Source: Undaria pinnatifida | Lineage: Eukaryota; Sar; Phaeophyceae; Laminariales; Alariaceae | Direction of reading: 5' to 3' | Length of the DNA: 64,000 nucleotides | Assembly (NCBI GenBank): GCA_012845835.1 | Contig: JABAKD010000014.1 | Location: forward strand, 2,525,984 to 2,589,983 | Shown: positions 21,297 through 63,545 of the stretch, piece after piece | How positions within the stretch are numbered: position 1 is the first letter of the stretch | How the letters are laid out: each line of letters begins with the position of its first letter | Position numbers and translations under genes: made by a program | The notes under the pieces: generated by a model | Seen by the model: only the letters and a program-made list of their open reading frames with translations | Database searches by the model: none | What the model was told of the DNA's origin: nothing

Positions 21297-21437
21297 CGTT
21301 CAAACGAGCCCCCCCCACGCGAGGGTCTAGGGCCATACGACTACGGCCATGCAAAGACTGACTACCCCCCCCCCCAAAAAAAAAAACGTCCTTCATAGTT
21401 GGCCCTGACACGAGCCCGCCAGCGAAAAACTCGGTTT
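21297..21437 (+). repeat. Decayed copy of the intron/exon junction of the next exon
   Basis: The segment CCTTCATAGTTGGCCCTGAC, with its upstream TTCAAACGAGCC and poly-C, matches the true acceptor region at about 21.44-21.55 kb (CTCACAGTTGGCCCTCGAGG, upstream ATACAAACGAATCC and poly-C). The copy lacks about 13 bp and then continues CGAGCCCGCCAGCGA against CGAGCACGTCGGCGA. A fragment of element X lies inside it. Confidence 0.6.
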
Positions 21438-21497
21438 TCCTCATACAAACGAATCCCCCCCTCCTCGCCTCCCCCGCCTAAAAAACGCCTCTCACAG

Positions 21498-32497: not shown

Positions 32498-32850
32498 TGT
32501 CGAATTTATTATTTTCCCCGTGAAATTTGGTCTCAAAGTGTCTTGCGGCCTAATTTCAGCACGACAGCCGTCGAATCGCTCATTTCCGCGTGAAATTTGG
32601 TGTTAGGTTTTCATATCATGCGGCCTAATTTCAGCGTAATAGCTATCGATCGAATCTCTTGTTTCTCTCTGTAAAATAAATGTCAGGGATAAGTTTTCTG
32701 GAGTCCTAACTTCAGCACAACAGCTGATATCGAATACCTTATTTTCCCCTTGAAATTTGGCCTTGAGTGTCTTTCGACCTAACTCGAGCATAACAGCTAC
32801 AGCTGTCGAATTTCTTGTTATTTTTCCGCGTGAATTTTAGTCTCAGGTTT
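32498..32850 (+). repeat. Roughly 84-bp tandem repeat
   Basis: Four units of CGTGAAATTTGG, TTGCGGCCTAATTTCAGC and ACAGC..TCGAAT type. It leads directly into the minisatellite that follows. Confidence 0.75.
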
Positions 32851-32851
32851 C

Positions 32852-33960: not shown

Positions 33961-33984
33961 GTATAAGACACATGCTGCAGTAGT

Positions 33985-35008: not shown

Positions 35009-36285
35009 CTAGCCCACCCTGATGAGTCGCATATGCAGAAATATGGGAGATTCGGGGAAACTCCGGTTCTACGAACTAGACCATGAGTCGAAGATGCGGC
35101 TCCTCAAAATCCACTCCCACACCTCTAACCGTCTGGCTATGGAGCCAGGAACACGCGAAGAAAAACAGTAGAAAGAAAAGCAGACCCTACAGCAAGGCAA
35201 TAGTCACCCATCAAAAAACTGCCGCATGCCGCCGGTGTGGCCGGGGGGGCAGAAAAGGCGCTAGAACCTGCCGCATGCCGCCGGTGTGGCGGGGGGGGCA
35301 GGAAAGGCTCTACGATAAACCAACCACAGAAAAGGTACTATGGCGAGGCGAGCCCTCGTCGATATGGAGGGGAACACAGGCGCTAACACAAGGGAGAAGT
35401 CGTGCGAAAAACCTCCCGCGGGCCATCGGCAAGGCGGAGGGTTAGACGAGGAAACGACGAATACCCGGGATGGAAGGTGTCAACACCTACAGCCCCGCTA
35501 GGGGAGGAAGTGTTTAGACGAAAAAAAACAAAACAGAACAAATGCAACACACAAAACATAAATGAAGACACACAGACCCTTACACTGGTCGCCCGCCGGC
35601 TCTGGGCTGAGGGGGGCGTCGGCAGGGCGAAAATGAACAATGACGAAAAAGGCGACAGCCCTGCGCCTCAGATAGCGGCGTTTTACCCGAACCCTGACCC
35701 GGCACTGAGCAGGGGGTTCGGCAGGACAGAAAAAAAAAATGGAAAGAACCGCCCCAAACTCGGCGAACCTTTATTGTGATAACCCCTACACTGCACCTAG
35801 GGTAAATGCTGCCTGTTTTGGTCCTATGAGCGTGGGCGTTTTGGGCGACGCTTTCCTGTGCTACCCCCCCCCGCCTAGGTTGAATAATGCCTGTTTAGTG
35901 CGATGGCTGAAGACGTACCTTTACTGTGTTGCACCCCCTGCACTGCGGTTAGGGTCAGTGCTGCCCAGTTTTGGCTCCTTGTACTGCGGTTCGTGCGGGC
36001 GTTACCCATATACCCTACGGTCAGACTGGGCGCTGCTCTTATGTTGCGGTTTTGATGATTGGTACCTTCCCACTGCTGTACTCCTCTTATACGGCTAGTT
36101 GGCGTGGCTGCTACCATCACTGATGCTGGACGGAGTCGAGGCCCATATGTTGCTGTTTGCTGAAACACAGATATACCGCTACTTGGAGCAGGAACACCAC
36201 AACAATTTATCTGTCTCCATAGCTTCTTCACGCGTCGTTCCTATCCCTCCCCCCCCCCCCCCCCCCGACACTACACCTAGGCACC
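35009..36285 (+). other. Leader region of the LTR element
   Basis: No long frame. Two copies of CATGCCGCCGGTGTGGC with a G-run and GCAG.AAAGGC lie at 35.22-35.31 kb. Two related blocks (AGGGTAAATGCTGCCTGTTT and AGGGTCAGTGCTGCCCAGTT) lie at 35.80-35.97 kb. A run of about 20 C stands just before the gag-like start. Confidence 0.6.
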
Positions 36286-39237: not shown

Positions 39238-39300
39238 CAGGGCGACGGCGGTACGGCACACCCGACCCCTACGCCGACGGCACTGTCGGGGACACTTCCT

Positions 39301-40521
39301 TTGCTTTCACAAGATGCTCGAGTGCCTGTCGTTCGCCTTACACGTGGCGCGGCACAAATTATTTCTGTCAAGAGCCCACGGGCTCCTACGTTGCCTGATG
39401 ACTTTCACGGCGCAGTGCCGGCGTTGGGGACCAGTGCTCCCAGCATGCCCCCCCCCAGCCAGGTTACATTATCTACGAAGGGGGTGCGCGCCCACAGTGA
39501 CGCCCCCCTCGTTCATGGTCCGAGTTCGGCAATGGGGACCAGCACTTCCAACGCCGTTAACCCCTGCCGTGGCTCAAGCTCGACAACGGAGGCACTCGCC
39601 CCTAACGCTGCCCCCCTCAACCATGACTCAGGAGCCCGCACCTTGCACGCTCCCCCCAGGCATGCGTCGCGCAGCAAGAAGACTGCGGCGACGGCGCGTC
39701 GCCCCCCTACGCGAGCGGGTTCGTCTCCACCTCTTCCCGACCGTAAAGCGGCGATTGGTTTGAGGTGTGGGAAAGCCAACCCATATGCACCGAGATCTTT
39801 TCCAAGATTTGATCCGGTGTCTCCTCGCGATAGTAGCGGGCGCTCTATCCTTTTTCCCATCGAGGAGGAGCCGACAAGCTTAGCTACCTCGTGTCTCTCC
39901 TCCAAGAGGGCTAACGGGAAGGAGCCTCCTCGGGCGAAGAATTTATTTCCACTTGCCCGAGCCCCGCTTTCGAAGACGCCCACAGGGTCTACGGGCCCTG
40001 CTCCGTCTTTAAGCACGCTAACCCACGTGCACCAGGCTACGTCTGCCCCATTGGCACAGGATATAGATCCGACACTGCGCAACGGGCCAGTGATGACGCC
40101 ACGGCCTCCAGCCCGATCAACTGGACGCTATTCCCGTGAAGATACGGAAGAATCGCGCCTCTCGTCAAGCAGTAACAGCTCCGAGCCCCCTGTCCCTTCG
40201 GGTGCAGTGAGAGCAGTTCCTTGCGATTTTACGCCAAAGAGCGACAAGGCCACGGCGCGACCACCCGTGGGTTCGGGCTCGCGCCGTGCTCCCGAGGCCG
40301 GGCGTTCCCAGACGGGGACCCTGCAGGCCCAAAGTGCCAGAGACTGGTGTCACCAGACGGGGACATTACAAGCTCATATGCCTAACACGGCCTCCGACGG
40401 GTTGGCACCGTCGACTTTTGACCCTTCCCTCGAATACTCTACAGACAAAGTAGTGTTGTTCTGGCAACCGCCGTCCTTTTTCTCGCAGTGGCCTCCTTCG
40501 TCGTCGTGCCCGAGTGGTTAA
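39301..40521 (+). CDS. Second frame of the LTR element, Pro/Ser/Ala-rich
   Basis: A 406-codon frame downstream of the gag-like frame. It is low in complexity, rich in Pro, Ser, Ala, Thr and Arg, and contains a duplicated QTGTLQA motif near its end. No enzyme motif (YxDD, D-E-D, DTG) is visible. It may be a disordered accessory region or not translated at all. It ends just inside the tRNA-like sequence. Confidence 0.35.
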   Translation: MLSQDARVPVVRLTRGAAQIISVKSPRAPTLPDDFHGAVPALGTSAPSMPPPSQVTLSTKGVRAHSDAPLVHGPSSAMGTSTSNAVNPCRGSSSTTEALAPNAAPLNHDSGARTLHAPPRHASRSKKTAATARRPPTRAGSSPPLPDRKAAIGLRCGKANPYAPRSFPRFDPVSPRDSSGRSILFPIEEEPTSLATSCLSSKRANGKEPPRAKNLFPLARAPLSKTPTGSTGPAPSLSTLTHVHQATSAPLAQDIDPTLRNGPVMTPRPPARSTGRYSREDTEESRLSSSSNSSEPPVPSGAVRAVPCDFTPKSDKATARPPVGSGSRRAPEAGRSQTGTLQAQSARDWCHQTGTLQAHMPNTASDGLAPSTFDPSLEYSTDKVVLFWQPPSFFSQWPPSSSCPSG

Positions 40522-47600: not shown

Positions 47601-50600
47601 CTCGGATGATAGCAACAATATGTATCGTGACCTACTTCTTGCCTTTTGTTTCAAAACAGCAGCCTTACGATAATACCTGGTACTAAAATAACTCGACCAT
47701 TTCGCGTACCTATTGGTCACAGAAATAGGTATCGATCGACAGTCTGACATAACTATTGTATTAATAATAACAATAGCCTGTTGTGCCGATTTATTAGAAC
47801 CTATTGGTCGAAGAAATAGGTATCGATAGACAGGTTCACACACCTACCTCAAGAACAATAGCCTATTGTACCAATTTCTCTGGACCTATTGGTCCAAGCA
47901 ATGGGTATCGATCGACAAATTCGCATACCTATTGAACGTGTCAATAGGTATCGATATGCAATGCCCCAACCTATTGACATTCGATAGGCATTTTCAATAG
48001 GCTATTGTCGGGGGGGGTTTACATAGTAATACCCATTGCTGTCTCTGGAGTGGCTACACCAGAAAACAAAGCAACTCATTGGCGCTGTCATCCAGAGGCA
48101 AGAAAGTAGGCACAATGTGCCGAAGTCCGTCTTACGAGCGGTTCTGGGAAGGATGCAGCTCACCCTTCGTGCGACTCGCCGAACATCTCACGGCGCTTCG
48201 CTTGGCGCAAGCAATGTCTGCCTGGTTGGTGAAAACCCGACGTACCCCGTCCCGGCAAAGTAGGGATGCAAGGGTCTATGGTCATACGACTACGGCCATG
48301 CACAAATTGAGTACTCCCCCCCCCCCGGCCCGACGGTCTGATGTTCCCTACCAGGCGCCGACACCGAGGGTGCAGCAGGTGTCCGTCCTCGGCCTCGACA
48401 AGCTTGCAGCTCAACAGCGGGCCGAAAAGCAAGCGGCACTGGAAGCCGTCGGTGGCGGAAAAGGTGGTGGCACTAATAGGTCTACCGCTCCCCGGGGCGG
48501 GGCTCTGTCATTTGCCGACCAAGAGTCGGGCGAGGACAGGGGGGTATCGGGTGTCGAGGGGGTTCGTACAGGAGGGAGGCGGGCAGCAGGGGCGCAGGGG
48601 GGGGGGGGGGGCGGTGGTAATGGAGGAGGCGGGACCGAGCCCGGGGACGGGGAGGGGACCGGTGGGAAGAAGGAGCCGAGGTGTGTGTTTTGGTTTGGTT
48701 TGGTTTGGTTTATTTGTCCCACGCAGGTTGCAAAAGACGGGGGGGGGGGGGGGGGGGGAGGGGTACTCACTTGTTGCTTGCCTTAGTCATTTGACCATTG
48801 ACCACGCATCCCTTTCGAGACGGAGCACCGTCCCTAGTCCTAATAGAGACACCTCCAACGTTTGGGCGCTCCTTACGCTTTTTCCATATATTACATAGCA
48901 ACTGTGTATCTCCTTCCTGTTTCACCGCCTGTGGCCACCATCTCTCTCCTAGGATACCGATTGTTTGCTCGCTACTCTCTAGTCTCCCAAACTCTTCCTG
49001 GCCACATTCTTCTAAATTTCCTCATCTCCTGTAACACATTCCGTTCCTCCTTGTATATTTCACATTCTCCTACTATGTGAGCCATACGCTCAATTCTTGT
49101 GCCACACAGGCACATGTTTGCATCCATGCCCTCCTCCCGACTACTGGTGTGTATCTTTCTTCTTTCTGGTAGGTCCAGGTCCCCTACACGAAATCGTGGT
49201 TTCAGCCTTTTCGCGTAGTCCATTGGGCCGTGCAAATACGTTTTCCTTCCAGTGTCTTCCATCAACCCTCCGTATATCTCCCAAGTGCTTCTCCTCTTTC
49301 ACCTTATTTCGTAGCGCTAACCTTTCCCTTTCTTCTATTGTTTCTTTTACTTCTGTCTTGTCCCCGCCAAACTTCTCTATAGACAGTACCTCTTCTTGGT
49401 CTCCTCCTAACGTGTTCAATATTTCCTCGAGTACGTTATCCCATCTTATTCCAGCTCGCCCTTTTGTTATTTTCTCCCATACAACCCTATCAGCTATGGC
49501 TGGCAACCTCTTTTCTGGCATATTCCTTATTTATATTGCCATTTGCTTTCTCTCGTCTCGATTTGTTTGAAGTGGGTACATTCCTAGTTCTGCTCTTAAT
49601 ACTGTGATTCGTATTCCTCGTCGTAATTGAGCATCCTAGTATCTTTGTAGCTGGTGTCATCTGCGCTGTTTCCAGTTGTTTTACGAACTTCGCGTTCCCA
49701 TCCCATACTTCTCCTGCATACACTAGCTTTGGCACAATCACATTCATCAGAATACATATTTTAATCCTAGCGTCAAGGTGCGAGTCAAAGTATGGGGAGG
49801 GGGGGTATCCAGTGAAATTGCAACGACGTTTTGGCGATAAATTGTTGACTGTACTTGGAATTCGAGGGTTGAGAGTATGGCATGGCAGTTTGGTCCCTTA
49901 ACGCGCGCAATAATTCACCTTCCCCTCCCCCCCCCCCCCCCCCCTCACTCACAGACAGCGACACTACAGGTCAAGGCCTGGCCCCGATACCCCCTCCCAT
50001 CCCGGAGGCGTTAACCGCTCAGCTAAGGAAAAAATTGACGAAAAAGAACGCTCCCGAAAACGTGCCGCCACCACCACCACCACCACCACAGCAAAGAATG
50101 ACAGTGCAGGCACCAGCAGACGGAGTCGGTGGGGGTCGTCGGCAGTAGCAATACCGGAGGTGGCGGTAGCTGGGGCAGGGGAGGGGGGAGAGGCAAGGGA
50201 GAGGGGCGGGGGGAGGCGGAATGATGGGGATCGGCGGGAAGGGGGCGGGAGGAAGCGGGATGACCGTGATCGTGATCGCGACCGTAACGCCGGCGATCAG
50301 AGTAGTCGTCGGGAGAGCAGCAGCAGCAGCCGCCGTGAGAGCGGCAGCGGCGGGTCGAGAAGAGACAGAGATAGCGGCCGCTCTGCCACCAACGGGGGTG
50401 ATAGCTCTAGAAGCAAGCGCTCGAGGAGCCCGGGAGGGGGGTCGGTTTCGCGAACCAGAAATCGGAGCAGGAGCAGGAGCAGAAGTAGGAGCCCGGAGCG
50501 ACGCCGCCCGCGCACAAGGGAGAGGTGGGAGGATGCCGTTACACCAAGGTGAGAATGCGGCTCGCGTTGCGCGCGGCGGGGGGGGGGGGGGGGGTGCCTC

Positions 50601-53600
50601 GATATAATGTGAAGGCGTTATGCAGGGGGGGGGGGCTCTCAAAACTCAAGGTTACACTCAAACTCAAGCTCAAGCTCAAAAATCAAACTTAAGCTCAAAG
50701 TCAAAATGAAAATTGCGCGACTCCAAACTTAAAACGCAACGCTCGGACGATAATTCACAACTCAAAACGCAATGCTCGGACGATAATCCAAACTGAAAGC
50801 ACCCAACTCACATCAAACTCAAACTCAAACTACAAACTCAAACTTCAAAGCTCAAAGATCAAAACTCAAAACTCACCACGCAACACTCAATCTAAAACTC
50901 AAACATCAAACTTCAAAACAGGAATGGAAGCACCCACACCGACGGAAGAAGCAACAACGGCAGCAGCAGCAGTAGCCGCCACAACAGCAGCAGCAGCCGC
51001 AACAACAGCAGCAGCAGAAGTGGGGCTCGAGACAAGGGGTCTTCGTGGCTACCCACCCCTCTTCCTAGCCCCTCCCGCCGTCGCCCCGACGGCAGCCGTG
51101 CAGACCCTACCCGCGCAGGAATAGGCCTGGATGAATCAGAATGGGAAGAACCAGAACGCCTTTCTTCAACTCCTTTGCCCAGTCCCGGGGTTTCCACCCG
51201 GGGTGATAGCGGTGTTGGCCGCGGTGGGGAGGGGAAGACACCTATGACGGCTACTACTGCCACACCTACCCCCATGTCGCGGGGGTCTAGGGGGGGCGAG
51301 GGGGGTGATGACGGTGATGGAGGGTGGGATAGGCCGAGCCCAAGTCCGAGGTCTGGGTGGGATAGGCCTAGTCCTACCCCGTCGTCGATTTCTTCGAGGG
51401 ATGCCAGGTGAGGCTAGGGTATGCGTATTGCTCGGATCGAAAAAAGTACGAAGGCTTTCCACGGGTCATGACCCGGCTCGCTGGTCGGGTCAAGAGACAT
51501 TTCGAAAACCCGTGGGTCGAGTCGGGTCGGGTCAGGAGGTGTTGGAAATCTCATGGGTCGGGTTGGGTCCGGTCGGGTCAGGTGTCTTTCTAGTATCAAG
51601 GGGTCGGGCGTGGTCATCCTGGCCCGGTTCGACCCGCGAGAAGAGACCCGACCCGTGAAAGCCTTGAAAATTACCTGGTACGATCTAGATCATCTAGGTC
51701 CTAGATCATCTGTGAATAGATCCTACATTTTCGTTTTTATAGTCGTTGCTGAGCAGGAGATATAGGCCTAGTCGTACCCCGTAAACGGTGTCTTGGATGG
51801 AGGCCAGGTGGGGCTATATCTACAGTGCACAGATCGGAGACATGTCTAGATCATCTATGAACATATCCTGCATTTGGAGGTATGGCTAGGCTATTAATAG
51901 GCTATAAATAGTCAACACACGTGACAGATCACGACTTGGATCATGTACGTATGAATATAGAACTACTTACCGTTAGGAGGTGTTGCTGTGCAAGTTGTGT
52001 GGGCCTGCTACTACCCCGTCAACGATGGAATCGAGGGAGCCCAGATACGACTAGGCTAGCAACATTCCCTCGGCGATCGTATCAACCTGGACTCCCCCCC
52101 CCCCCCCCCCCCCCCCCTCCCCTCTTTCCCCTCCCCCCTCCCCACCGGATTATTGTGCCCCCCCCCCCCCCCGTTTCACGATGTTTATATTTCCGCTTCA
52201 TCGTGGACGAGGTGGGGTCGGGCTCGACCCATTCATCCCGCATCTCGATTGTGATGTTTTTGTTTTGTATTTCCCAAAGCCGCGCGCGCACATCAGCAAC
52301 GATTCTCGTAGTTAGTTTATGACACGTCGGACACAGATCATATCCCTACTAATTACTAATGATCTATCTATGTCATTCGGGTCACATGGATCCTGGTATG
52401 TATGATCTGCATGGCCGATATTGCTCATGTTGCCGGGTGGGAGCCGTATGATCTGTATGATCTAGCACATGTTTCCTGAATTGGATATGCGCTGTTCAGA
52501 TCCGGGATCTTGTATGTTGTGTATCTTCTACTACAGATATAGGATCAAGATCATCTAGATCGTGATGTTGCCGGTTGGGAGCTGTGTGATCTGTATGAAC
52601 ATTTCCTGCATTGGATCTGTACTGTTCAAATCGGAATCTAGTATGTTCTGGATCTACTACAGACGTAGGATCTAGATAATCTAGATCGTGATCTGTCCGA
52701 TGGGGTAACTGTTCGATTCATATGTGGGACATGAACAACTATTGGTAATTAATGTATTCATGCTTCACGTTGGCGTCTGAGGCTGGTCATCCCTTTTTTC
52801 CACGATGTTTTGCTTTGCTTTGTTCGACGCGCTTTTACCAATTTTTTTCGACTGTGCAGGTCTACGAGAGGAACAGGCTGGTCTACCCGGGGCGGGGGCG
52901 ACGGAAGCGAGGGCGTTGATAATGTACGTGCGTGTGTGGTGTGTTCTTAGGGGAGAGGGGGGAGGAGGGGGGACAGGGAGGAAGAGGGGCGGAGGAAGCA
53001 GGGAGTATTGAGTGGGGAGAAGGGAGGGGACGGGGAGGGGGGTGCGGGGGGGGGGAGGAAGGAGGGGCGGGGAGAGGTTGCGTGAGTGGCGCAGTATTGT
53101 TGTCCCGGGGTACAGGGAAGCGGGGGGGGGGGGGGGGGGGGTTGGGGGGGCTTGTTCGGCGTCGCGATTCGTTCCCTATATTTATCGTGTTTTTGTTTCA
53201 CACGTGTTGTTCGTTCCTTTTTGTTTTGTGTGTTTTTAGACCATGGCTCCATCCGTTGTTATACATATATGTTCGTATATACCAGGTATACATATATATA
53301 CTTCAAGCCCCCCCAACCCATCCCAACCCCACCCCCTCGACCACTCCACCCTCTCTCTAGTCACTGATTGTACGACTTACCCCAGGATATACATGATAAG
53401 CTGATGCATTCTTTCCAAAACCGTAACATTTATCCCCTCCAAATAATGTATAGTTTCCACGCACAGATTGAGCTGCCCCACACGCCCCACCCCCGCCCCA
53501 ACCCCCCCCCCATGATAAACTGGTGCTTTTTTTTTTTTTTTTTTTTTTTCCCAAAACCGTCAGATTTATTCCCTTGAAAGGATTTATAGCTTACACGCAC

Positions 53601-55505
53601 AAATTGCCCGCCCGTCCGCCCCCCCCCCCTTTGCCCCCCCCCCGCCTCCAACCCCGCTCGCTTTTGATCAGAACCAGGCCCCCACGTCCTTCAAAACTCC
53701 GCCCGGTTATTCGACTTACAGGATTCACTTGATAAAAGGATACATTTCCCTCCACAGCTGTCAGATTTTGTCCCCCTCAGAAACGGGTTTTATAGTTTCC
53801 GCGCACAGACTGACTAAAATCACCCTGTTGACCCTGATAGCTACACTGCAGTTGTGAGGGGAGTCGCCGATCTATATCCTTAATGAGGACACACAACTCG
53901 TAATACGCGCGATCGGAGTATCACACACAGCTTACAAAGATGAGTTTCGACGAAATCTTCGATCTCACAGCTGGAGTGTATTTTCATTTTTTATAATATA
54001 CTTCGAAGTGTATATTCTCTCCACGATTCCGTTCGTGTTAAATTGGGATTTGGATTTGGGTTTTGGTCTGATTTGCACTATATGATTTTTCAGCAAGACT
54101 AGAAGGCGCAGCAGAGGCGGACGGCCAACATCGACGACGAGGAGTTCGACAGGGGGTTCTATTTGCGTGATGATGGGAGGGGAGGAGAACGGTGGAAGAT
54201 TTTTTTTTATATTTCTCCGTACATAAACATGTTAACATGCCGCCATTCGTTCCATATACCTGGTATGTATTAACACCATGGTCTAGTCCGTTCCCCTTTT
54301 TTGTTTTTCGTCTAATCCAATTCCGTTTTACTTTGTCACAATTTTAACTTGTGTGTCCTTGTTTTTTCAGCAAGACTGGGAGGCGCAACAGAGACGGACA
54401 GCCAAAATCGACGACGAGGAGTTCGACAGGGGTTTCTATTTGCGTGATGATGGGGGGGGGGCGATGGAAGACTCGGAAGCGTCGAACCCTTTCCTTGGGG
54501 ATGAGAAGAAATTCGCTGCTAAGGAGGCCGAGATGGCCAAGCTACGGTAAGCTTCAGAAAGTAGACGTGGTTTTTGTGGTATGGTATGGTATAGTACGGT
54601 TTGGTTTGGTACAGTGTGATACGGTATGGTGAGGTACATGGTATGATATGTTTGTGGTATGTATTGATATGGTGTGCTATGGTATAGTATGGTATGGTGT
54701 TGTGTGGTATGGTACGGTACGGTATGGTATAATATGGTATGGTATAGTATGGCGAGGTGCATGGTATGGTATGGTGTGGTATGTAATGATATGGTGTGCT
54801 ATGGTATGGTATGGTATGGTATTATATGGTATAGCATGGTAATGCATAGCATGGTAATGCATAGCATGGCATAGTTTGGTGTGTTGGACTGAAACCGAGC
54901 CAAAACCGAGCTGAAAACAAACTGTCCAAAACCCGCGTCCGAACGCGCGCATAGATATCTATAGTTTCACACCATATACATACCTCTATTGTCCACACAG
55001 GGCGAAAGGGGAAGGGAAGATAGCGAACCGAACTGCAAAGGCCAGTCAGATGAGCGCAGACCAGGACGCGTGGGAGAACAACCGCCTCCTTACAAGTGGA
55101 GCCCTGTTTGAGGGAGAGGTGTCGCTAACGTTCGACGATGGGGAGGATCAGCGCGTACAGCTCATCGTGCACTCCCTCAAGCCGCCCTTTTTGGATGGTC
55201 GGGTTAGCTTCAGCATGCAGCAGGTGGGGGATAAGGGGGGGGGGGGGGGTAGGGTTGGACAGGGGGGGGGGGGGAGGAGGGAGTTCGTTTTTGTTTTTGC
55301 ATTTTTTTGGGTTAATTATTTATTTTTGCTCTTTTTTTTCGTGTTTTTGCATTTTTTTCGATGCCACGTACACTCCCTCAAATCGCCCTTTTTGGATGGT
55401 CATGAAGCAGTTGGGAGATGGGGAGAGGGGAAGGAAAGGGGGGGGGGGGGGGGGGGCAAGAGGAGGGAGGGGGCTCGTTCCTTTTTTATATATATTTTTT
55501 TCGTG

Positions 55506-55547
<42 letters not shown>

Positions 55548-58500
55548 CGGTATTTCGATTTTTTTCTTTTTTTTTTCGATAAGCATATGCTACGATAGAG
55601 GTTACCCTTTTTGGTTGAAACATTTTCTGAATGACGCGTCTCCTAGAGATCAAATCGTCGTCCGAATTTCGTTAATTTTTTTTCATTTTTCTGTGTACCT
55701 AGGTCATGGGATTTTTTTTTTTTTCTAATTTTTTGATCGGGTAGCACTTCCCCCCCCCAAAAAAAAACAACAGTTTTTTGGGGGAGTTTAGAGCTTTAGT
55801 GAGGACCTTCCGAAACAAATGGTGCCCCGTGACCGAATAATGCGTCGATACTTGGTGCACTCCCTCAAATCGCCCTTTTTTGGGTGGTCGGGTCAGCTTC
55901 AGCATGAAGCAGGTGGGATGGAGGGGGGAGCAGCGGGGGGGGGGCAGGGGTCGGTTTGTTCCCCCCCCCCCCCCCCGTTTTCCTTCCTTTTTTTTCCGTT
56001 CTTGTTCTGATTTTCCATACTTTTGTTCCTTGTCTTGTGCGATTTGTCCCCCCCCCCCCCCAGTTTTCCTTCCTTTCTTTTCTGTTCTTGTTTCTGATTT
56101 CCCATACTTTCGTTCCTTTCTTGTGCGAAAAGAGAGACAGAAGACAATCCCGACCATGAAATACCGGTCGAGTCACTTCACGCTCTTAATGGGCCAGCGA
56201 AGTCCTCGGTTACCCGTGAGAGAAGAAATGCGCTACAAGGGCGGAAAAGATGACGCTACTCGTACAGTTGTAGCCTTTTTTTTATTTTATTCCCCTAATG
56301 TTTTCGTTTCATTTCGATTTTGCTATCCTTTTTTTTTTCATTTTTCCCTCGCCCCCATTGTGTTTTTGGTTTGTTTTCTTCCTCTTAATTTCTAATTTTT
56401 CATACTTTTGGTTCTTCCTTTTTTTTTTTCGTGTTCGTGCGAAAACAGAAAATGGTCCCCACTGTGAAAGACCCGTCGAGCGACTTCGCGCTCTGTGCAC
56501 GGAACGGGTCGGCCACCCTCCGACACCAACGAGAGAAGCGTGAGAAGGGCAAGATGCGCCAGCGATTCTGGGAGCTGGGGGGAAGCCGCATGGGCAAGGC
56601 GATGGGGGTCGCCGATGAGAAGGAAGGAGGTGGTGACGAGGAGGAAGGGGAAGGGGACGGCAAGGAAGAGGTAAGAGGAGAAAGGCGTTGGCCTTCTTTT
56701 TTTTTTTTCTTCGGCTGCAAAATCTATTTTTTTTTTTTCGAGTTTCAAGTGGTTTGTCCCTCAGAAACGAGCTTCTTTTTTTTTCATCATCACTTTTTAC
56801 TTTCCGGCTCAACTCGTAAGTATGAGGTTTTACCCTCTCAGCGACGTTCTGGACAAGATGTAGTCACGGGTGTCTTGCCTTCTTCTCCCCGCTATGAGGT
56901 AAGGTGTAACAGGTTGGCTCAGTTTGCTGTTTTTGGTGCTTTTGTTGCGAAGGGGGTTTTCTTTTGAGTGGAAGGGTCGGCGGGGTGGGGGACGGAGGGG
57001 AGCGAACGGGAACGCAAGGAAGAGGTGAGAGGCACTTAGACTAGCCCTTTAAAAACTGCATCCCTTTGGGAGGGGGCAAAGTGCGGTAGTAACATGGTGT
57101 AAGGAAGAGGCGTTTTGCATGGGCGAGGCGGTAGGGGTGGACCGATAAGAAAAAAGGGAGGGGGGGAGGGGACGGCAAGGAAAAGGTAATGGACGAAAAG
57201 GGCTTTTGGGGATGTGTTGAGGCGTTTTTGTGTTGGAAAAGGCGTCCGTTTTGAGTACAAAGGAGGCGGGGGGGGGGCAGGGGACGGTAAGAAAGGGAAA
57301 ATAGAGACGCTTTGAATATAACCCTTCAAGAACTGCATTCCTCTTTCATGGGAGAAAACTACTTGGAATTAGACGGAGATACTGGTTGCAGTTGGTAAGT
57401 GGTTGGCTCCGGTGCTTATATGACGCTTTTTTCAAGGCGTTTGTGTTGGAACGGGTGTCGGTTCTGAGTACAGGGGAGGCGGTGTCCATTGGGGGGGGCA
57501 GGGGAAGGTAAGAGATTATAGGCACTTCGATTATAACCCTTTAAGAACTGCATCCTTTCTTAGGGAAGCAAACTGCTTGGAATTTTTTTCGCGGTGGTGA
57601 AAGGTTGGTGCAGATGCTCGTGTGGCGTCTGTCAAAGCGTTTTTGTCGAAAAAGGAACTCGTTTTTGAGTGGGAAGGAGGCGGTGTCGATGAGTGGGGAC
57701 AGGGGACGGCAAGGAAGAGGTGAGAGAGGTACTTCGATTACCACTTTAAGAACTGCATCCTCTTTTCCTCTCTTTTCTTGTAGTACTACGGGAGACAAAT
57801 ACCACCATAGTTCTGAGCATGTTGTTCCCCAAACACATGGATGCAGTGTGTCGTTGCACAGGGGCGAATTGTGTTGGAACGGGAGTTCGTTTTGAGTAGA
57901 AAATAGGCGGTGTTTTATGGGGGGGGCGGGGGGGCGGGGGGCGGCAAGCACGAGGTGGGCGGCGAAAGGTCTCAACGGATTTGTGCTCTGATTCTCTTTT
58001 TGGTGCTTGTTTCGGTGGTTGCGTGTTGAAAACGGAGTTCGTTTTGAGTGGAAGGGATGCGGTGTCTATGCAGTTGGGCGAGGGAGGGGGGGGGGGGGGG
58101 GAGGGCAGGGGATGGCAAGGAAGGGATGAGAGGTACTTGAGGAGGAGGACGGGTTCCTTTCGGAATCTCTTGACCCGTTTTGTTTCTGGAAGTCACAGAG
58201 GAAAAATGAAACAAGTAAGTGTTTGCTGTGATGATTGCGGCAGCATTTGGCCACACGAAGCATCCCGGACTCTCTGCTAGGGTAGGGTAGGGTGTGCTTC
58301 AGGAGTGGATCATGGGGTGGTACATAGGAGTATACTTGTGCTGATGCACGCTGTTCACTGTAGGAAGGGATTATGAGACCGCACCTCTGTTTCTTTTTTC
58401 TAGTTTTTTTAAAGTTCGCTATGCTTTTTATCGATTCCGAAGGGTCAATTTGGTGTCATGAAGCGTGTGCTACGATACGGGTGGCGATATTCGGTTGGAA

Positions 58501-61500
58501 CGGGTTCCTGGAAGACGGGGCTCCTTCGCCCGAGCCCGTCGCGGTGTTAAAATGTTGGCTATTCCTGGAGTGGTTTACGTATTGTTAGTACCGCATTTAT
58601 TGTCGTTGATAACGTTTTGCCACTGTACGCATTTTTAAGATATTGCTGTTAACACTGACGAAACATCACAACTTAGTACCTCGGGATGAAGTACGTGTAG
58701 CAGCTAACATCGTTACAACTTGCCGTTGATGTTAATTCACCCTCGCACCATCTGTGGGATGAACGAGCGGCCGGTGTATCACGCAGCTTGCAAAATATGA
58801 GTATTGATTTTAAATTTATCGAAACTCACAGCCTAGTCTACGTGTTTAGAAGTTTTTTTTTTGTTTTTTTCAATATATATTTTTAATTGCAATACCTAGG
58901 CCATCGGGTTGCGGCTTTATTTTTTTTTGGTCGAAATCGTGTCTTAGGGTGAAAGTTAGGGTTAGGGTTAGAGATAGAGGGGTATAAAGCTCCCTCCTTA
59001 AGCGAGGAAAGAGTCCCAGGAAAAACAAGGCCCACCTCTCTTGCCGTGGCGTGTCTGATGGCAAAAAGTACAGCCCAAAGCAATAAAAACGACAACACGT
59101 ACATGTCCATGTCTAATTTTTTCTTGAAACAATGACAGCGACAACACGTGAACATTCTCAGCGACAACACATGAACACCTGTATGTCCAATTTCATGAAT
59201 GTTTTGCGCCGGAAAGGGCGTGTGGCGTGCGGTCTCAACCGCCTTAGAGCTATAATAACTGCACCCAAGTTTTTTCAGGACAAATTACTTGGACTTTGCT
59301 TGGACTCGAGTTTCTTCTTTAATGCAAGTAGTTTTTGGGACAAATTACTCAGGCATAGTGTGCGTGTTTTTCCAGTAGTAGGAGGGCTCAAAAGGGCCCA
59401 TATACCGCTGTCGCGCCTTTATCCTCATCCGGTTGGGATTTTGGCATTTCCGTCGGTAAATGTAACGGTTACATCAGGGCGAGGAGGACATGGACTACAA
59501 GAAGGCGGCGGGATTCCAGCAGCACATGAAGAAGACCGAGGCTATGTCGCACTTCAGCAAATCCAAGACCATGCTGGAGCAGAGAGAGTTCCTGCCCATC
59601 TTCCAGGTTAAGGATGACCTTCTCCGAGTCATCCGTGACAACCAGGTAAGACCGACGGAAGTGCCATTATTTTGATGTGACCGACCGTTAGTATGCTACC
59701 AGGTGTACTATTACTAGCCCGTCGGGACTTCGGCAGCGTCGAAAAAAATGTGATAGGATCTTCTCCGAGTCGTTCGTGACGATCAGGTGTGACCGACGGA
59801 ACTGCCACTATTTTTGATGATACCGACCGTTATTTTGTGATACCTTTAATCCCACGGGGAGTTCAACTGGAAAAGCGACGAAAATAAATGACGGGATCTT
59901 CTCCGAGTCATCCGTGGCAATCAGGTCGGCCCGACGGAAATGCCATTATTTTGTAGCCTTACCGACCGTCTGCAGTCGCCCGGTTGTGTCATGATCCCAA
60001 GCCGATTCACTACAAGGCGACACAGAAGATACTCGAGTATTTGAATGCCACGTCGGATTTAGTCTTGACTTTCAGGAGGGATAGTGACTTTGAGTCGGTG
60101 CAGATGGAATTTGATTTAGAGACGTACGTAGACGCGGACTACGCCCACAAGGCAGAGGACAGGCGTTCCGTTTCTGGTGTAGCTGTTTGCTGCGGTATAT
60201 ATGTGAATCTATAGTAAAATAGTACGACCGACGATTGCTTGTTGTTCGGCCGGCGGGGATTGGTTGTCTTGGAACAGTCAGACCGACCGTTACCGCCATA
60301 ACATTGTAAGTATTCCTGCGGGGAAGTTGGTACATTATAGAACCAAGTATGGTTAGTAAACATACATGAATACGTCGCATATACGTTTGACGGGGAACGT
60401 CTCCATCTCAGTACTTTGGACGCTATCCCGGACCCCTCCTTCCCCCGTTCATGTGTCCCCTCAACCCTGCCATACAATGCTCCTCTTTGCTTGACGAGAC
60501 CCGCCACTCTCCCGACCCTTAGGACCCCCACCGCTCCCCCCATTCCTTCGTTCCGTACACCCGGTCAAACAAGTCTCGTGATCTGACGGGGCCCCCATGT
60601 CGGCCCTTGGGATGCTAACCCGGAGCCCCCCCCCCCCCCCCCCCCCCCGCGACGTTCTCTCTGCCGCCTTAGCCCTGTCAAGCAATGCTCCTCTTGGTTT
60701 CAACGAGAGCTGTCATCCTCCCGACAATCAGGACGCTGATTTCATCACCCCATTTTTTCGCCCCCTCCACCCGGTCGAACAAGGTTCTTGGTTTGGCGGG
60801 AACCCCCCCCCCGCCTTTTCCAAACCTTCGGACTCTGTATCCCGAGGCACACGTCGCCCCTCGCGGGGCGCCTCCTCCATTCCCTCCTCAACCTTTTCTA
60901 ACACACCTCCTCTTTGTTTTGTGAAAAACGCCTCCCTCCCCTTTTAGAAACACCGCAAATAATATGCCACAATAACTCCAAGTCAATTGTACCTGGAAAC
61001 GTTTGGTGCTGTTCTGAAAGGGTTAAGACGCTTAATCCGGACCCCCCCCCCTCCCGCCTCCGCCTCCGCCTCGGCCTCCGCTTTCTTGCTTCCTGTAGGT
61101 GGTCATCATTGTGGGGGAAACGGGGTCGGGAAAGACAACGCAGATGACACAGTACCTGCATGAAGGGGGTTTCACGCAGTAAGTTGGCGTTTTTTTGCTT
61201 GTTTCGAGTGTCCAGGCCTTGCCGTATGCCTCGTTTGGGGGAAGGGGGGGCCACGATTAGGGTGGCCGTGACGATAGTGGTGAATGAGGATGACGCAGTG
61301 CCTACAAGAAGGAGGTTTCACATCGTTTGTTGGCGTTTTTGGCGTGTTTGATTGTCGAGGCCTCGCCGGGTGCCGGAGGAAAGGTGGGCGGGTGGGGGGG
61401 CAGTGATGCAGGTGGTAGTGGTGATGGTGACGGAGTAGTTGTTGCTGGTAGTGATGTTGGTGGTGGTGTTGCTGATGGTGGTGTTGCTGCGGTTGTTGTT

Positions 61501-62408
61501 GCTGTGGCTGTGGTTGATGGTGGTGCTGATGCTGTTGTTGCTGTAGCTAATGCTGTGGCTGGTGCTATTGTTGTGGCGGGTGCTGCTGCTGTTGTGCTCC
61601 TGTGGTTGTTGTTGCTGCTGCTGCTGCTATTGCCGTGACTGTTGTTGTTGCCTTGCTTGGTGATGTCGCTATTGCTGCTGTAGCTGGTGATATTGTCGTG
61701 ACTCACGAGGTGGCTGCTGCTGCTGTTGCTGTTGCTGTTGTTGCTGTTGCTGCTGTTGCTGTTGCCGTAGTTGATGCGGTTGCTGTCGCCGCTGTGGCTT
61801 ATGTCGCTACTGCTGTTGATGTTGTTGCTTTTGCTGATGCTGTTGTTGCTGTGGTTAATGATTTTAGTGCTGTGACTGATGTTGCTATGATTGATGCTGT
61901 TCCTTCTGCGGCTGCTGCTGCTGTGTGTTTGCGTTGTTCACATTAGCGTCATTTCCACCCGTCGACATCCATGCAGCACGCCCAGTGTCGGTGCCGATTC
62001 GTCATCCCAAGGAGAGACAAATCCTGTGGGTCACAAAGTAGGAGGCAGAGATATACATCGCAAATACAGCTGTAACGAGAGTTTACCGTTCAATGCCAAG
62101 CGTACGGAATCATGAAAGCGGAGCGTACGAAAAGCCAACGAAAAGACAATTCGCAGGAGAGAAATATATATATATATATGAATGCCAGCAAACAAGGTAA
62201 CTCGCAGGGCGCGAAAATGTAAATAATGGCTGCTGCTGATGTTACTGCTGTTATGCTCTTGCGTACGCGCGTGCTGTCTCCTCCATGCGCGTCCCAATTG
62301 CTCCGCGATAGATTTGGGAAGGTCGGGTGCACGCAGCCCCGTCGTGTAGCCGCCATGTCAGTGGCAAAACGCGTCAGCGAGGAGATGGGCGTCGGCCTCG
62401 GGGATGAG
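44064..62408 (+). CDS. DHX38: PRP16 / DHX38, DEAH-box pre-mRNA splicing helicase (5' and middle part)
   Basis: Prp16 is the ATPase that remodels the spliceosome after the first catalytic step. The gene is recognised from order and sequence of exon segments against animal DHX38: [27 protein letters not shown], an Arg/Ser-rich region, two GWDRPSP(S/T)P repeats, [62 protein letters not shown] and [15 protein letters not shown]. Eleven exons join with consistent phases and GT/AG borders, giving about 990 codons. The next expected residues (VGYAIRFED) and the DEAH, SAT and C-terminal motifs are not in the window, so the gene continues beyond the right edge. The N-terminal part is several hundred residues longer than in animals. 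Introns are 0.37-3.7 kb. Confidence 0.93.
44613..46085. repeat. CAG/CTG-rich degenerate repeats in intron 1
   Basis: About 1.4 kb of interrupted CAG, CTG and GCA triplets arranged in loose units with GTCGGGGGTGCTTGGGCTGG (twice near 44.68-44.75 kb) and GTGCTGTAC. Frames in several phases give poly-Ser, poly-Gln, poly-Ala or poly-Leu and are by-products. A relatively plain stretch lies at 45.2-45.7 kb. Confidence 0.75.
46086..48335 (+). repeat. Element X copy, split by a hAT-like insertion
   Basis: After a C-run, 46.11-46.36 kb and 48.02-48.33 kb together match the continuous copy at 62.62-63.19 kb: GGGGTTGGCGTTGG, TAGACAACCAGGGTACCG, CTCCGCACAAGGGGAATGA, CCCATTGCTGTCTCTGGAGT, GGCCATGCAC. Class and coding status are unknown. 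Its 3' end comes within 20 bp of PRP16 exon 2. Confidence 0.8.
46363..48018. mobile_element. 1.66-kb non-autonomous hAT-like element
   Basis: Flanked by an exact 8-bp duplication TTACATAG (46,355-46,362 and 48,019-48,026). The empty form (TTACACAG) is present once in the intact element X at 62,873-62,880. Ends are imperfect inverted repeats (CACACCCTGGGCAATAG against the complement of CTATTGTCGGGGGGGT, about 12 of 16 matching). The interior is packed with AGGTATCGAT, CCTATTG and CAATAGGCTATTG motifs in both orientations. An 8-bp duplication is typical of hAT elements. No transposase is encoded. Confidence 0.8.
48355..48680 (+). CDS. DHX38: PRP16 exon 2
   Basis: Starts after CCCTACCAG with [18 protein letters not shown], the conserved Prp16 segment APxPR..LLGLD. 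It continues through a Gln/Glu/Ala stretch into a Gly-rich, disordered part. The donor is GTGTGT after AAGAAGGAGCCGAG, leaving phase 2, which the next exon completes. It follows exon 1 in phase 0. Confidence 0.85.
48767..49795 (-). mobile_element. 5'-truncated LINE, C-terminal reverse-transcriptase region
   Basis: On the minus strand, fragments in more than one frame read [20 protein letters not shown], then [20 protein letters not shown], then a Cys/His zinc knuckle (CLCG ... HIVGEC), and finally [19 protein letters not shown] up to a stop at about 48,767. This is the thumb and C-terminal part of a non-LTR retrotransposon polymerase. It is truncated at the 5' side near 49.80 kb and shifted in frame at least twice, so it is dead. 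It lies antisense in PRP16 intron 2. Confidence 0.8.
49970..50548 (+). CDS. DHX38: PRP16 exon 3 (RS domain)
   Basis: Begins after a C-run and ACTACAG, one base completing the codon from exon 2. [20 protein letters not shown] follows; TPSHPGGV is a hallmark of Prp16 N-termini. Then come a Glu/Lys/Arg stretch, a short poly-Thr run, and a long Arg/Asp then Arg/Ser domain ([20 protein letters not shown]). Ends ERWEDAVTP with donor GTGAGA in phase 2. RS domains mediate contacts within the spliceosome and nuclear localisation. Confidence 0.9.
50640..50915 (+). repeat. CTCAAA hexamer repeat in intron 3
   Basis: Irregular tandem CTCAAA/CTCAAG/CTCAAC units fill almost the whole short intron. A CGCAACGCTCGGACGATAAT block occurs twice within. 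Confidence 0.8.
50922..51407 (+). CDS. DHX38: PRP16 exon 4
   Basis: Starts after CAAAACAG in the phase needed by exon 3. It carries Ser/Asn/Arg-rich runs encoded by AGC codons, then [43 protein letters not shown] and two GWDRPSP(S/T)P repeats. Human DHX38 has matching W-E-x-PSPTPS and TPLPTPS segments in the same order. Donor GTGAGG, phase 2. The end of this exon is copied twice downstream. Confidence 0.85.
51451..51665. mobile_element. MITE family E, copy 2
   Basis: 215 bp with inverted ends AAGGCTTTCCACGGGTC and GACCCGTGAAAGCCTT. The interior repeats CGGGTCGGGTCAGGAGGTG. Located 45 bp after the exon 4 donor. Confidence 0.8.
51762..51838 (+). repeat. Decayed copy 1 of the exon 4 tail plus donor
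   Basis: ATAGGCCTAGTCGTACCCCG ... GGCCAGGTGGGGCTA ... CAGATCGGA aligns with 51,362-51,438 (end of exon 4 and start of intron 4) with scattered changes; the offset is about 400 bp. Confidence 0.8.
52001..52060 (+). repeat. Decayed copy 2 of the exon 4 tail
   Basis: GCCTGCTACTACCCCGTCAA, TCGAGGGAGCCCAG, then CTAGGCTAG: a third, more divergent version of the exon 4 end. Confidence 0.65.
52080..52320. other. C-runs in intron 4
   Basis: Two C-runs of more than 15 bases near 52.10 and 52.16 kb within short frames. No exon. Confidence 0.5.
52325..52700 (+). repeat. GATCT dispersed repeat, copy 3, duplicated
   Basis: Two successive versions of GTTGCCGG.TGGGAGC, GTATGATCTG, ATTGGAT.TG..CTGTTCA and GATATAGGATC-type blocks, matching those near 29.3 and 41.3 kb. 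Confidence 0.6.
52860..52923 (+). CDS. DHX38: PRP16 exon 5
   Basis: A small exon after TCGACTGTGCAG. Its first base completes the codon left by exon 4 (Arg), followed by [21 protein letters not shown] and donor GTACGT, phase 0. Gly/Arg content suits the position just before the conserved EEERQQWE-like segment, but the sequence itself is not conserved, so the call rests on splice sites and phase. Confidence 0.65.
53012..53160. other. G-rich stretch of intron 5
   Basis: Long G-runs, including about 20 G near 53.12-53.14 kb. No coding. Confidence 0.6.
53320..54005 (+). repeat. Foldback repeat, copy 3
   Basis: Three successive partial leader blocks (GATAAACTG, CAGATTTAT.CCC, TTATAG.TT.C.CGCACA) then the full arm GGGGAGTCGCCGATCTATAT ... 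CGCGATCGGAGTATCACACA ... CTCACAGCTGGAGTG. It ends about 90 bp before the copied exon 6. Confidence 0.7.
54094..54200 (+). pseudogene. Decayed upstream copy of PRP16 exon 6
   Basis: After ATTTTTCAG the sequence aligns with the first part of exon 6, 54,371 onward, with few changes, and encodes the same [20 protein letters not shown] stretch. The conserved Trp codon of QDW is TAG here (54,100-54,102). The copy loses similarity after about 95 bp and has no matching donor. If spliced in, it would truncate the protein, so it is a dead duplicate exon or a poison exon. Confidence 0.85.
54371..54546 (+). CDS. DHX38: PRP16 exon 6
   Basis: Begins after TTTTTTCAG in phase 0: [20 protein letters not shown], then a Gly-rich DDGGG turn and [20 protein letters not shown]. 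The Trp-Glu, acidic and NP.. pattern matches the segment QQWEDDQRQADRDWY...FHNPLA of animal DHX38. Donor GTAAGC, phase 2. Confidence 0.92.
54575..54880 (+). repeat. GGTAT microsatellite in intron 6
   Basis: About 300 bp of TATGG/GGTAT pentamers with some variants. Frames give Met/Trp/Tyr/Gly periodic peptides, not genes. Confidence 0.9.
55001..55223 (+). CDS. DHX38: PRP16 exon 7
   Basis: One base completes Arg from exon 6. Then [38 protein letters not shown], and [20 protein letters not shown]. Human DHX38 reads ERWETNRMLTSGVV and VHLMVHNLVPPFLDGRIVF at this place. The exon ends with two Gln codons before GTGGGG, phase 0. Its tail is copied twice in intron 7. Confidence 0.95.
55364..55411 (+). 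repeat. Decayed copy 1 of the exon 7 tail
   Basis: GTACACTCCCTCAAATCGCC and CTTTTTGGATGGTCATGAAG match the [10 protein letters not shown] coding stretch, then AGTTGGGAGATGGGG resembles the donor region. About 20 bp of the exon end is missing. Confidence 0.85.
55512..55546 (+). repeat. Run of about 35 G
   Basis: The longest homopolymer in the window, inside intron 7 between two exon-tail copies. Length may be affected by sequencing or assembly. Confidence 0.85.
55589..55851 (+). mobile_element. MITE family A copy in intron 7
   Basis: Starts TGCTACGATAGAGGTTACCC. The interior follows the family (GTGTACCTAGGTCATGGGAT) while the right end is decayed. It separates the second and third copies of the exon 7 tail and so is younger than that duplication. 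Confidence 0.65.
55852..55918 (+). repeat. Decayed copy 2 of the exon 7 tail plus donor
   Basis: GTGCACTCCCTCAAATCGCC, GGTGGTCGGGTCAGCTTCAG, CATGAAGCAG then GTGGGA: nearly the whole exon 7 end with a donor-like GT in the right place. Confidence 0.9.
55970..56280 (+). pseudogene. Copied acceptor regions and a decayed copy of exon 8
   Basis: Three C/T-rich tracts with TTTTCCATACTTTTGTTCCT-like ends occur at 55.98-56.03, 56.06-56.13 and, before the true exon, 56.38-56.45 kb. After the second one and GAGACAG, 56,141 onward reads [16 protein letters not shown] against [16 protein letters not shown] of exon 8. Similarity fades after about 100 bp, so this is an old tandem duplicate of the exon start with its acceptor. 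Confidence 0.8.
56449..56670 (+). CDS. DHX38: PRP16 exon 8
   Basis: 74 codons after [61 protein letters not shown], then a Gly/Glu/Asp-rich tail. Human DHX38: [42 protein letters not shown]. Donor GTAAGA, phase 0. The exon end GGGGACGGCAAGGAAGAG recurs in intron 8. Confidence 0.95.
56985..58140 (+). repeat. Intron 8 array with copies of the exon 8 end and donor
   Basis: The motif GGGGACGGCAAGGAAGAGGT, which is the end of exon 8 plus its GT, recurs near 57.01, 57.17, 57.71 and 58.11 kb with one to four changes, and more weakly near 57.28, 57.49 and 57.94 kb. Between the copies lie shared blocks CTTTAAGAACTGCATCC, TTGGAAT and GTGTTGGAA.GG..TTCGTTTTGAG. Unit length is about 150-220 bp. Some interior blocks are also found in dispersed repeats elsewhere, so the array is composite. 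Confidence 0.65.
58141..59477. other. Rest of intron 8
   Basis: Contains AGGGT repeats near 58.28 kb, decayed MITE family A pieces at 58.47-58.56 and 58.86-59.06 kb, a short GTTAGGGTTAGGGTTAG patch near 58.96 kb and a direct repeat of CAGCGACAACAC near 59.15 kb. No exon recognised. Confidence 0.5.
59478..59645 (+). CDS. DHX38: PRP16 exon 9
   Basis: 56 codons after [62 protein letters not shown]. Human DHX38 reads VDYRTEQKFADHMKRK, FAKKKSILEQRQYLPIFAV, LLTIIRDNS here. This is the segment just before the helicase P-loop. Donor GTAAGA, phase 0. Confidence 0.96.
59755..59835 (+). repeat. Decayed copy 1 of the exon 9 tail plus intron start
   Basis: GATCTTCTCCGAGTCGTTCG, CAGGTGTGACCGACGGAAC and GCCACTATTTTTGATG match the exon 9 end and the first 45 bp of intron 9. 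Confidence 0.9.
59888..59975 (+). repeat. Decayed copy 2 of the exon 9 tail plus intron start
   Basis: GATCTTCTCCGAGTCATCCG, CAATCAGGTCGGCCCGACGG, GCCATTATTTTGTAG and ACCGACCGT. The spacing between the three versions is about 135 bp. Confidence 0.9.
59984..60214 (+). mobile_element. Ty1/copia polyprotein fragment (fossil)
   Basis: A short stretch resembles the end of the reverse transcriptase and start of RNase H of Ty1/copia elements: [17 protein letters not shown], then a [18 protein letters not shown] motif, the family's Y-x-DAD-W/Y ... DRRS-SG signature. No LTRs are nearby. It is a small relic lying directly after the exon 9 tail copies. Confidence 0.8.
60430..60935 (+). repeat. Tandem duplication of a roughly 210-bp unit in intron 9
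   Basis: Blocks CA.GCAATGCTCCTCTT, CTCCCGAC, CCATT..TTCG and CACCCGGTC.AACAAG occur in the same order from 60.47 and from 60.69 kb, with a third partial unit near 60.88 kb. A run of about 24 C lies between the first two. Confidence 0.75.
61099..61178 (+). CDS. DHX38: PRP16 exon 10 (Walker A)
   Basis: After [29 protein letters not shown] then [14 protein letters not shown] is helicase motif I, which binds ATP phosphates. Human DHX38 has [26 protein letters not shown]. Donor GTAAGT, phase 2; the remaining base comes from exon 11. Confidence 0.97.
61288..61385 (+). repeat. Decayed copy of the exon 10 tail plus intron start
   Basis: ATGACGCAGTGCCTACAAGA, GGAGGTTTCAC, TTGTTGGCGTTTTTG, TGTCGAGGCCTCGCC and GTGCC align with 61,138-61,236 at an offset of 150 bp. 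The GT of the donor is not kept. Confidence 0.8.
61395..61935 (+). repeat. TGCTGT/GGTGATG repeats in intron 10
   Basis: About 540 bp of interrupted GTTGTTGCTG and GGTGGTG units. Frames give poly-Val/Ala or poly-Ala/Thr on the two strands and are by-products. Confidence 0.85.
62312..62408 (+). CDS. DHX38: PRP16 exon 11 (motif Ia)
   Basis: Starts after GCGATAG. The first base completes Gln, then [20 protein letters not shown] and [12 protein letters not shown] before GTAAGG, phase 0. [19 protein letters not shown] is the motif Ia region shared by DEAH splicing helicases. The next exon should begin near VGYAIRFED and is not in the window. Confidence 0.96.
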
Positions 62409-62539: not shown

Positions 62540-63195
62540 AATGAGTACACGCCCCCCCCCCCCCCCCCCGCCCCCCCCCCCCCTCGAATCCCCCCCCCCC
62601 CATTTTGTGTATATATAATAGTTGGCCTCGGTTGGCACCGAAGCTGTACAACATTATGTGTATGTTGGGGTTGGCGTTGGCTGGCAAACGACGCTGTAAA
62701 ACATGCCAATGACTGCGTGAGCTAGACAACCAGGGTACCGTTTTTGTTGTTTTTCTGGTTTTTTTTTGGTGGTCGAGTTAGATCATGTTGAACGGGGTAA
62801 AGAACCCTAAACTCCGCACAAGGGGAATGAGCGCATCACGTAGTGTGAATGTTATAAGGCATCCACGAGGCGGTTACACAGTAATACCCATTGCTGTCTC
62901 TGGAGTGGCCACACCAGAAGACAAAGTGACTCAAAGTAACTCATTGGCGCTGTCATCCACAAGCAAGAAAGTAGGCGCAATGTGCCGAAGTCCGTCTTAC
63001 GAGTGCTTCTTGGATGGATGCAGTTCACCTTTCATGCGAGTCGCCGAACACCTCACGGCGCTTCGCGCTTGGCAAGCAATGTCTGCCTGGCGGGTGAAAA
63101 CCCGACGTGCTCCGTCCCGGCATAGTAGGGATGCAAGGGTCTATGGTCATACGACTACGGCCATGCACACACTGAGTACACCCCCCCCCCTTTAG
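62540..63195 (+). repeat. Element X, intact copy
   Basis: Preceded by C-runs at 62.55-62.60 kb. Continuous from GTTGGCACCGAAGCTG to GGCCATGCACACACTGAG. It supplies the empty site for the hAT-like insertion in the other copy. A 136-codon frame (62,785-63,195) is present, but the matching region in the other copy is not similarly open, so coding is doubtful. Confidence 0.75.
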
Positions 63196-63198
63196 AAC

Positions 63199-63545
63199 AT
63201 GCTGTCTCCGAAACGGGCTACATCGGAAAAAACGAGCCATTCGATGCTTTCGTCCATGTGCAAGAACGTACGCACAAGGTGTCGAAGGCCGCCTGACGCG
63301 CGGTTCTTTGTGGGATGCAGCTCACCCTTTGTGCGACTCGCCGAACACCTCATGGCGCTTCACGCTTGGCGCAAGCAATGTCTGCCTGGTTGATGAAAAC
63401 CCGACGCGCCCCGTTCCGGCACTGCAGGCATGCGAGGGTAGTTGGTCGCACGACTACGGCCATGCATAATATGCTTGCACCCCCACCCCCGCCCCCTGCG
63501 CCTGCTCGGCTTTGCCTCCCTCCTGTAGAGCATGCAGCAGTTGGT
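63199..63545 (+). repeat. Element X, second tandem partial copy
   Basis: Repeats the 3' half: GATGCAGCTCACCCTTTGTG, CGACTCGCCGAACACCTCAT, GTCTGCCTGGTTGATGAAAA, GGTCGCACGACTACGGCCAT. It follows the first copy directly. Confidence 0.75.

Follow-up and report, generated by a model that had tools for sequence, protein, structure and literature searches.

Introns of a predicted PRP16 gene in the brown alga Undaria pinnatifida contain copies of the ends of the exons beside them. The gene lies in a 64,000-nucleotide stretch of contig JABAKD010000014.1 (hereafter the window; positions are counted from its first base). The exon copies are real, and we consider it likely that the introns were lengthened in part by repeated head-to-tail duplication, with units that crossed a splice junction leaving decaying exon edges behind. 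We regard these copies as what remains visible of a duplication process acting along the whole gene.

Exon ends recur in the adjacent introns

The last or first 70 bases of each exon (the whole exon if shorter) were aligned to the adjacent intron, and scores were compared with those of distant window chunks on both strands (15 junctions) and of 200 dinucleotide shuffles of the intron (17 junctions). For seven of the 17 junctions, the best match of the exon end within its neighbouring intron has a score that 0 of the 200 shuffles and 0 distant chunks reach. These are the donors of exons 4, 7, 8, 9, and 10 and the acceptors of exons 6 and 8. A preliminary description of the window had reported such copies, allowing that the matches might prove no better than chance; at these junctions, they exceed every null applied.

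Individual copies were separated by successive masking of alignments, and 16 were followed: two each at the donors of exons 4, 7, and 9, seven at the donor of exon 8, one at the donor of exon 10, and one each at the acceptors of exons 6 and 8. Copies were recovered at every position named in the preliminary description, including upstream copies of the exon 6 and exon 8 heads with acceptors, which scored above all nulls. A third exon 4 match, at 52208, was dropped, its score of 86 falling below the null maximum of 95.

The PRP16 gene and its exons

The protein joined from exons 7-11 has human PRP16/DHX38 as its top solved-structure match (7a5p, E 1.1e-78, chain residues 364-609). The gene is accordingly predicted to be a PRP16/DHX38 orthologue, a splicing DEAH helicase, and the name it was first given is borne out. 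A scan of the exon 7 protein against genome contigs (209 pattern matches) and viral contigs (20) yielded no match confirmed by tblastn. Exon limits were placed by GT/AG and reading frame, and exons 4-11, when joined, keep an open frame of 505 codons. Less certainty attaches to where exon 4 starts and to the assignment of PRP16 exon 3 (end 50549). Introns 4-10 measure 1452, 1447, 454, 1225, 2807, 1453, and 1133 bases.

50922-51407, + strand: exon 4; start placed from AG and frame; last ~50 bases recur in intron 4
52860-52923, + strand: exon 5; GT/AG and open frame
54371-54546, + strand: exon 6; open frame, 176 bases
55001-55223, + strand: exon 7; structure match and open frame; tail from ~55166 recurs in intron 7
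56449-56670, + strand: exon 8; structure match and open frame
59478-59645, + strand: exon 9; structure match and open frame; tail from ~59616 recurs in intron 9
61099-61178, + strand: exon 10; structure match and open frame
62312-62408, + strand: exon 11; GT/AG and open frame

The copies and two duplications confined to introns are distributed as follows, with identities given as matching over aligned bases.

51756-51836, + strand: exon 4 tail copy 1 (tail 51756-51807); score 152, 40/52; self-match E 2.3e-7; GT kept (CCAG/GTGGGG); intron side alone not significant
51994-52044, + strand: exon 4 tail copy 2; score 120, 36/51; donor lost (CCAG/ATACGA)
52398-52724, + strand: intron-only tandem duplication in intron 4; distance 139; E 1.4e-27
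54083-54201, + strand: upstream copy of exon 6 head (head 54094-54201); self-match E 1.4e-27; exon 93/103; acceptor TTTTTCAG
55367-55596, + strand: exon 7 tail copy 1 with intron 7 start (tail 55367-55401); exon 40/44, intron 104/131; both sides 0/772 nulls; donor lost (GCAG/TTGGGA)
55842-56047, + strand: exon 7 tail copy 2 with donor and intron start (tail 55851-55912); exon 61/69, intron 89/113; donor kept (GCAG/GTGGGA); intron side weak
55975-56258, + strand: upstream copy of intron 7 end and exon 8 head (head 56148-56258); exon 79/106, intron 121/146; both sides 0/772 nulls; E 2.9e-20
56947-58197, + strand: array of ~7 decayed copies of exon 8 tail, from masked alignments and self-matches
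59748-59987, + strand: two tandem copies of exon 9 tail with donor and intron start; unit ~140 bases; E 3.7e-30; both sides 0/772 nulls
60388-60919, + strand: intron-only tandem duplication in intron 9; distance 196; E 2.9e-20
61277-61423, + strand: exon 10 tail copy with intron 10 start (tail 61283-61321); exon 37/48, intron 75/93; both sides 0/776 nulls

The copies of the exon 7 tail and exon 8 head together fill about half of intron 7, and the latter overlaps an 88-base intron duplication at 55952-56128. The two exon 9 tail copies lie at 59755-59786 (exon 32/38) and 59895-59924 (exon 33/35). In the exon 8 array, tail alignments at 56947-57024, 57117-57201, 57666-57719, and 58048-58125 are accompanied by copied junctions near 57024, 57185, 57295, 57507, 57719, 57954, and 58132. 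The copy at 57719 alone beats every null by itself, and the units are linked through copy-to-copy matches. Whole units within the array match one another (57220-57561 with 57435-57766, E 1.8e-40), which identifies them as tandem units irrespective of the present sequence at the authentic start of the intron.

Farther upstream of the exon 6 head copy, the intron homology is weak and merges into a dispersed repeat. This repeat, at 53324-54000 in intron 5, also occurs at 162-676 and at 13628-14001, the latter 82% identical over 380 columns. In intron 9, a resemblance of 59999-60211 to a copia-type (Ty1/copia) RNase H was noted by eye and set aside, as Pfam did not support it.

Conservation on the two sides of the copied junctions

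Each junction side of the 16 copies was also scored alone against 772 null pieces (776 for exon 10). Ten copies had an exon-side score that no null reached; for the other six, all of exon 8 and situated in G/A-rich sequence, 1-6 of 772 nulls did. The intron side alone exceeded all nulls in five copies (exon 7 copy 1, both exon 9 copies, the exon 10 copy, and the exon 8 acceptor copy). It was weak in three, namely exon 7 copy 2 and the exon 6 acceptor copy (13/772 each) and exon 8 copy 4 (21/772), and was reached by 47-527 of 772 nulls in eight (both exon 4 copies and six of exon 8). Both sides are significant in five of the 16 copies, at the donors of exons 7, 9, and 10 and the acceptor of exon 8. 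The preliminary description had each copy running across the donor into the intron start; this is borne out at these four junctions, where the intron side is clear, but not at the other three.

Over the 16 copies together, identity is 795/969 aligned bases in the exonic parts and 992/1304 in the intronic parts; gaps are excluded, and local alignment flatters both parts, the intronic more. States common to the copies and distinct from the exon unit occur at eight exonic sites for exon 4, three for exon 7, and two for exon 9, as expected either from re-copied copies or from later change in the exon, which the data do not separate. Exonic differences at codon positions 1, 2, and 3 number 30/180, 24/181, and 41/185 (12 of the 16 copies, four exon 8 copies being left out). 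We tentatively read this mild third-position excess as that of a free copy next to a constrained original.

Local direct duplication extends along the gene

Self-matches between 49.9 and 62.5 kb comprise 22 significant pairs, 88-794 bases apart, all direct and none inverted, while the rest of the window holds 79 direct and 63 inverted matches. The uniformly direct orientation indicates tandem duplication, the origin that had been proposed. When only matches within 1.5 kb are counted, direct ones extend over 30.0% of the gene and 15.9% of the remaining window, and inverted ones over 0.0% and 8.1%.

The gene was further divided into 70-base tiles, each counted if its local direct match exceeded all its nulls. 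Direct copies were found for 67/136 intronic, 11/22 exon-dominated, and 3/5 mixed tiles, and inverted matches for 9, 1, and 0, respectively; in the rest of the window, 182/701 tiles had a direct copy and 71 an inverted match. Part of this signal is simple repeat, including a TGGTA array in intron 6 and a GCTGTT-type array in intron 10. Outside Tandem Repeats Finder arrays of period <=50, the direct counts are 55/119 intronic, 10/20 exon, and 129/630 in the rest. The unfiltered counts for introns 4-10 are 9/20, 7/20, 5/6, 9/16, 18/39, 10/20, and 9/15.

These observations suggest a model in which segments ~90-500 bases apart were duplicated head to tail repeatedly along PRP16. A unit lying wholly within an intron would simply lengthen it. 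A unit reaching from an exon tail into the next intron would place a second copy inside the intron, behind a still usable authentic donor; in the mirror case, a unit reaching from an intron into an exon head would leave the earlier of its two copies upstream of the authentic acceptor. Such events could leave the mRNA as it was, with selection holding the original exon part while the copy degenerates. In some arrays, further copies probably arose from existing ones, in the manner of a minisatellite. We infer that the authentic sites are used, that the copies are neutral, and that the duplications arose by slippage or unequal exchange.

Copied splice sites lead into stop codons

GT is kept in 11 of the 14 donor copies, or in 10 if an alternative alignment ending at 58125 is preferred, in agreement with the earlier statement that several copies keep it. 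Reading through the authentic donors meets a stop at 51409 (exon 4), 55596 (exon 7), 56965 (exon 8), 59673 (exon 9), and 61180 (exon 10). Every copied donor that keeps GT is located past such an in-frame stop, and the sole copied donor ahead of one, exon 7 copy 1, has no GT. The copied acceptors of exons 6 and 8 read into stops at 54100 (an in-frame TAG) and 56393, ahead of the authentic exon. Use of the copied sites would therefore be expected to yield a broken message, and the copied exon edges are probably non-functional. Cryptic donor use, as the preliminary description suggested, is possible but would be non-productive.

Alternative explanations

The duplications might instead be generated by a process aimed at splice junctions, five of the nine donors tested carrying copies. 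Exon tiles are copied as often as intron tiles, with or without short-period repeats, and a blind self-match set covers four of 17 junctions, where circular shifts of the set average 4.5 and 76% of them do at least as well. This indicates that junctions are not special, and a preference for them, which we consider very unlikely, was not borne out; copies holding exon sequence are simply easier to recognize because the original exon does not decay. It is also very unlikely that the introns owe their origin to tandem duplication of AGGT-containing exon sequence (the Rogers/Hellsten model). The model as reviewed (PMC3443670; also told in PMC4974935) involves the same mutational step, and AG/GT tandem copies are present at several donors. 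That model, however, needs a new intron between two exonic copies, none of which was seen in PRP16, and the tail of the preceding exon should reappear immediately upstream of the acceptor. In the PRP16 introns no tail copy has that position: the tail copies are confined to roughly the first half, and the copies that are significant on the acceptor side derive from the head of the exon which that acceptor serves. This supports the enlargement of introns already present, as first proposed, over the making of new ones.

A regulatory role, with the copied donors acting as decoys in the splicing of PRP16's own transcript, would suit a gene whose product is a splicing factor, and the retained GTs leading to stops would allow non-productive splicing. 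By our estimate, about 9 of 14 would keep GT by chance at ~80% identity, which gives no sign of selection; we consider such a role very improbable. Decay of whole or alternative exons is a highly improbable source: the exon 6 copy does retain an acceptor and 93 of 103 aligned bases, but it spans only the first ~103 of 176 bases, with a stop at its third codon, and no whole-exon copy was among those found. Haplotypes or mis-joined reads placed in tandem by the assembly, for which long poly-G and poly-C runs might give occasion, seem extremely unlikely, since even over their exonic parts the copies diverge by 6-27%, and they also differ from one another, exceeding allelic expectation.

Several points weigh against growth by junction-crossing tandem duplication. 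Ten of the 17 junctions have no counted copy in the adjacent intron by the shuffle null: the match score was reached by 1/200 shuffles at the exon 3 donor, by 9/200 at the exon 7 acceptor, and by 19-127/200 at the remaining eight. At three of the seven junctions with copies (exon 4 and 8 donors, exon 6 acceptor), the intron side scores weakly or no better than chance when taken alone; two-sided decay would explain this, and copying of exon sequence only would explain it too. In addition, the analysis covers one sequence from one species, and any polarity or timing given to the events is provisional.

Comparison with described boundary duplications

The original report of the mirage repeats of amphioxus Adh is reportedly that of Canestro in 2002. 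The PRP16 copies appear similar to these minisatellites and, judged by sequence, would belong with them under an existing name. Later papers describe tandem-duplicated intron-exon boundaries in Adh3 and the globins BflGb6 and BflGb9 (PMC3087553) and, besides Adh and TnC, in PGBD5 (PMC3902484), with splicing reported undisturbed. For PRP16 itself, the open 505-codon frame of exons 4-11 bears on this point only indirectly. Units there measure 10-160 bp, and many copies keep AG/GT (PMC3087553, PMC3902484). The PRP16 copies likewise are minisatellite-like boundary duplications, often keeping AG/GT, at both the 5' and 3' edges of introns (five donors, two acceptors). Their repeat units span the exon-intron boundary with both sides evident at four junctions and the exon side alone at three. 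Unlike the described mirages, they belong to a DEAH helicase gene, affect seven junctions within this single gene with a junction spacing of ~110-500 bases, and are more decayed.

Related cases are found in potato and humans. In potato RdRp, a boundary-crossing tandem duplication made a new intron (PMC4974935); the PRP16 acceptor copies share its tandem duplication of intron end and exon head, but sit inside an old intron. Human genes carry variable internal tandem repeats at exon-intron boundaries (PMC2812944), which, like the PRP16 copies, are minisatellite-class repeats at exon edges altering the intron; unlike them, the human repeats are recent, nearly identical, and located in segmental duplications, with transcript effects. 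The earlier impression that no standard description of the pattern exists therefore does not stand, given these accounts. For Ectocarpus, reported features include long introns and tandem repeats spread relatively evenly (PMC12477816). Among open-access titles and abstract openings, we found no account of intronic exon-edge copies in an alga, a weak negative given that no query addressed PRP16/DHX38.

Implications and neighbouring features

Transposons are the usual explanation offered for long introns in some lineages; in PRP16, about half of the intron tiles have a local direct copy. Copies holding a conserved exon piece would stay recognizable long after plain intron duplicates fade, and intron growth by duplication could thus be measurable in any genome with gene models. 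A more tentative and rather doubtful extension is that, throughout the genomes of this lineage, introns owe much of their length to local tandem duplication, some of it crossing splice junctions, with the frozen exon halves forming a datable fossil record of intron growth.

Elsewhere in the gene, a repeat known from 48019-48331 occurs twice side by side in intron 11, at 62874-63495 (79-88% identical). Outside it, a long open reading frame (ORF) at 21399-23336 contains an internal repeat at 22888-23077 whose offset, 102 bases, is divisible by three; tandem duplication is thus evident within a probable coding stretch as well. Two large adjacent stop-to-stop ORFs of 1004 and 427 amino acids at 36223-40521, neither with a Pfam match, are perhaps a retroelement. 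Pfam gave one match, far below its cut-off, on ten window ORFs including this pair, and two matches, both below cut-off, on three further stretches. Rfam and ARAGORN identified one tRNA-Ser, overlapping the end of the ORF pair at 40500. A minisatellite block with many direct self-matches occupies 32846-33961.

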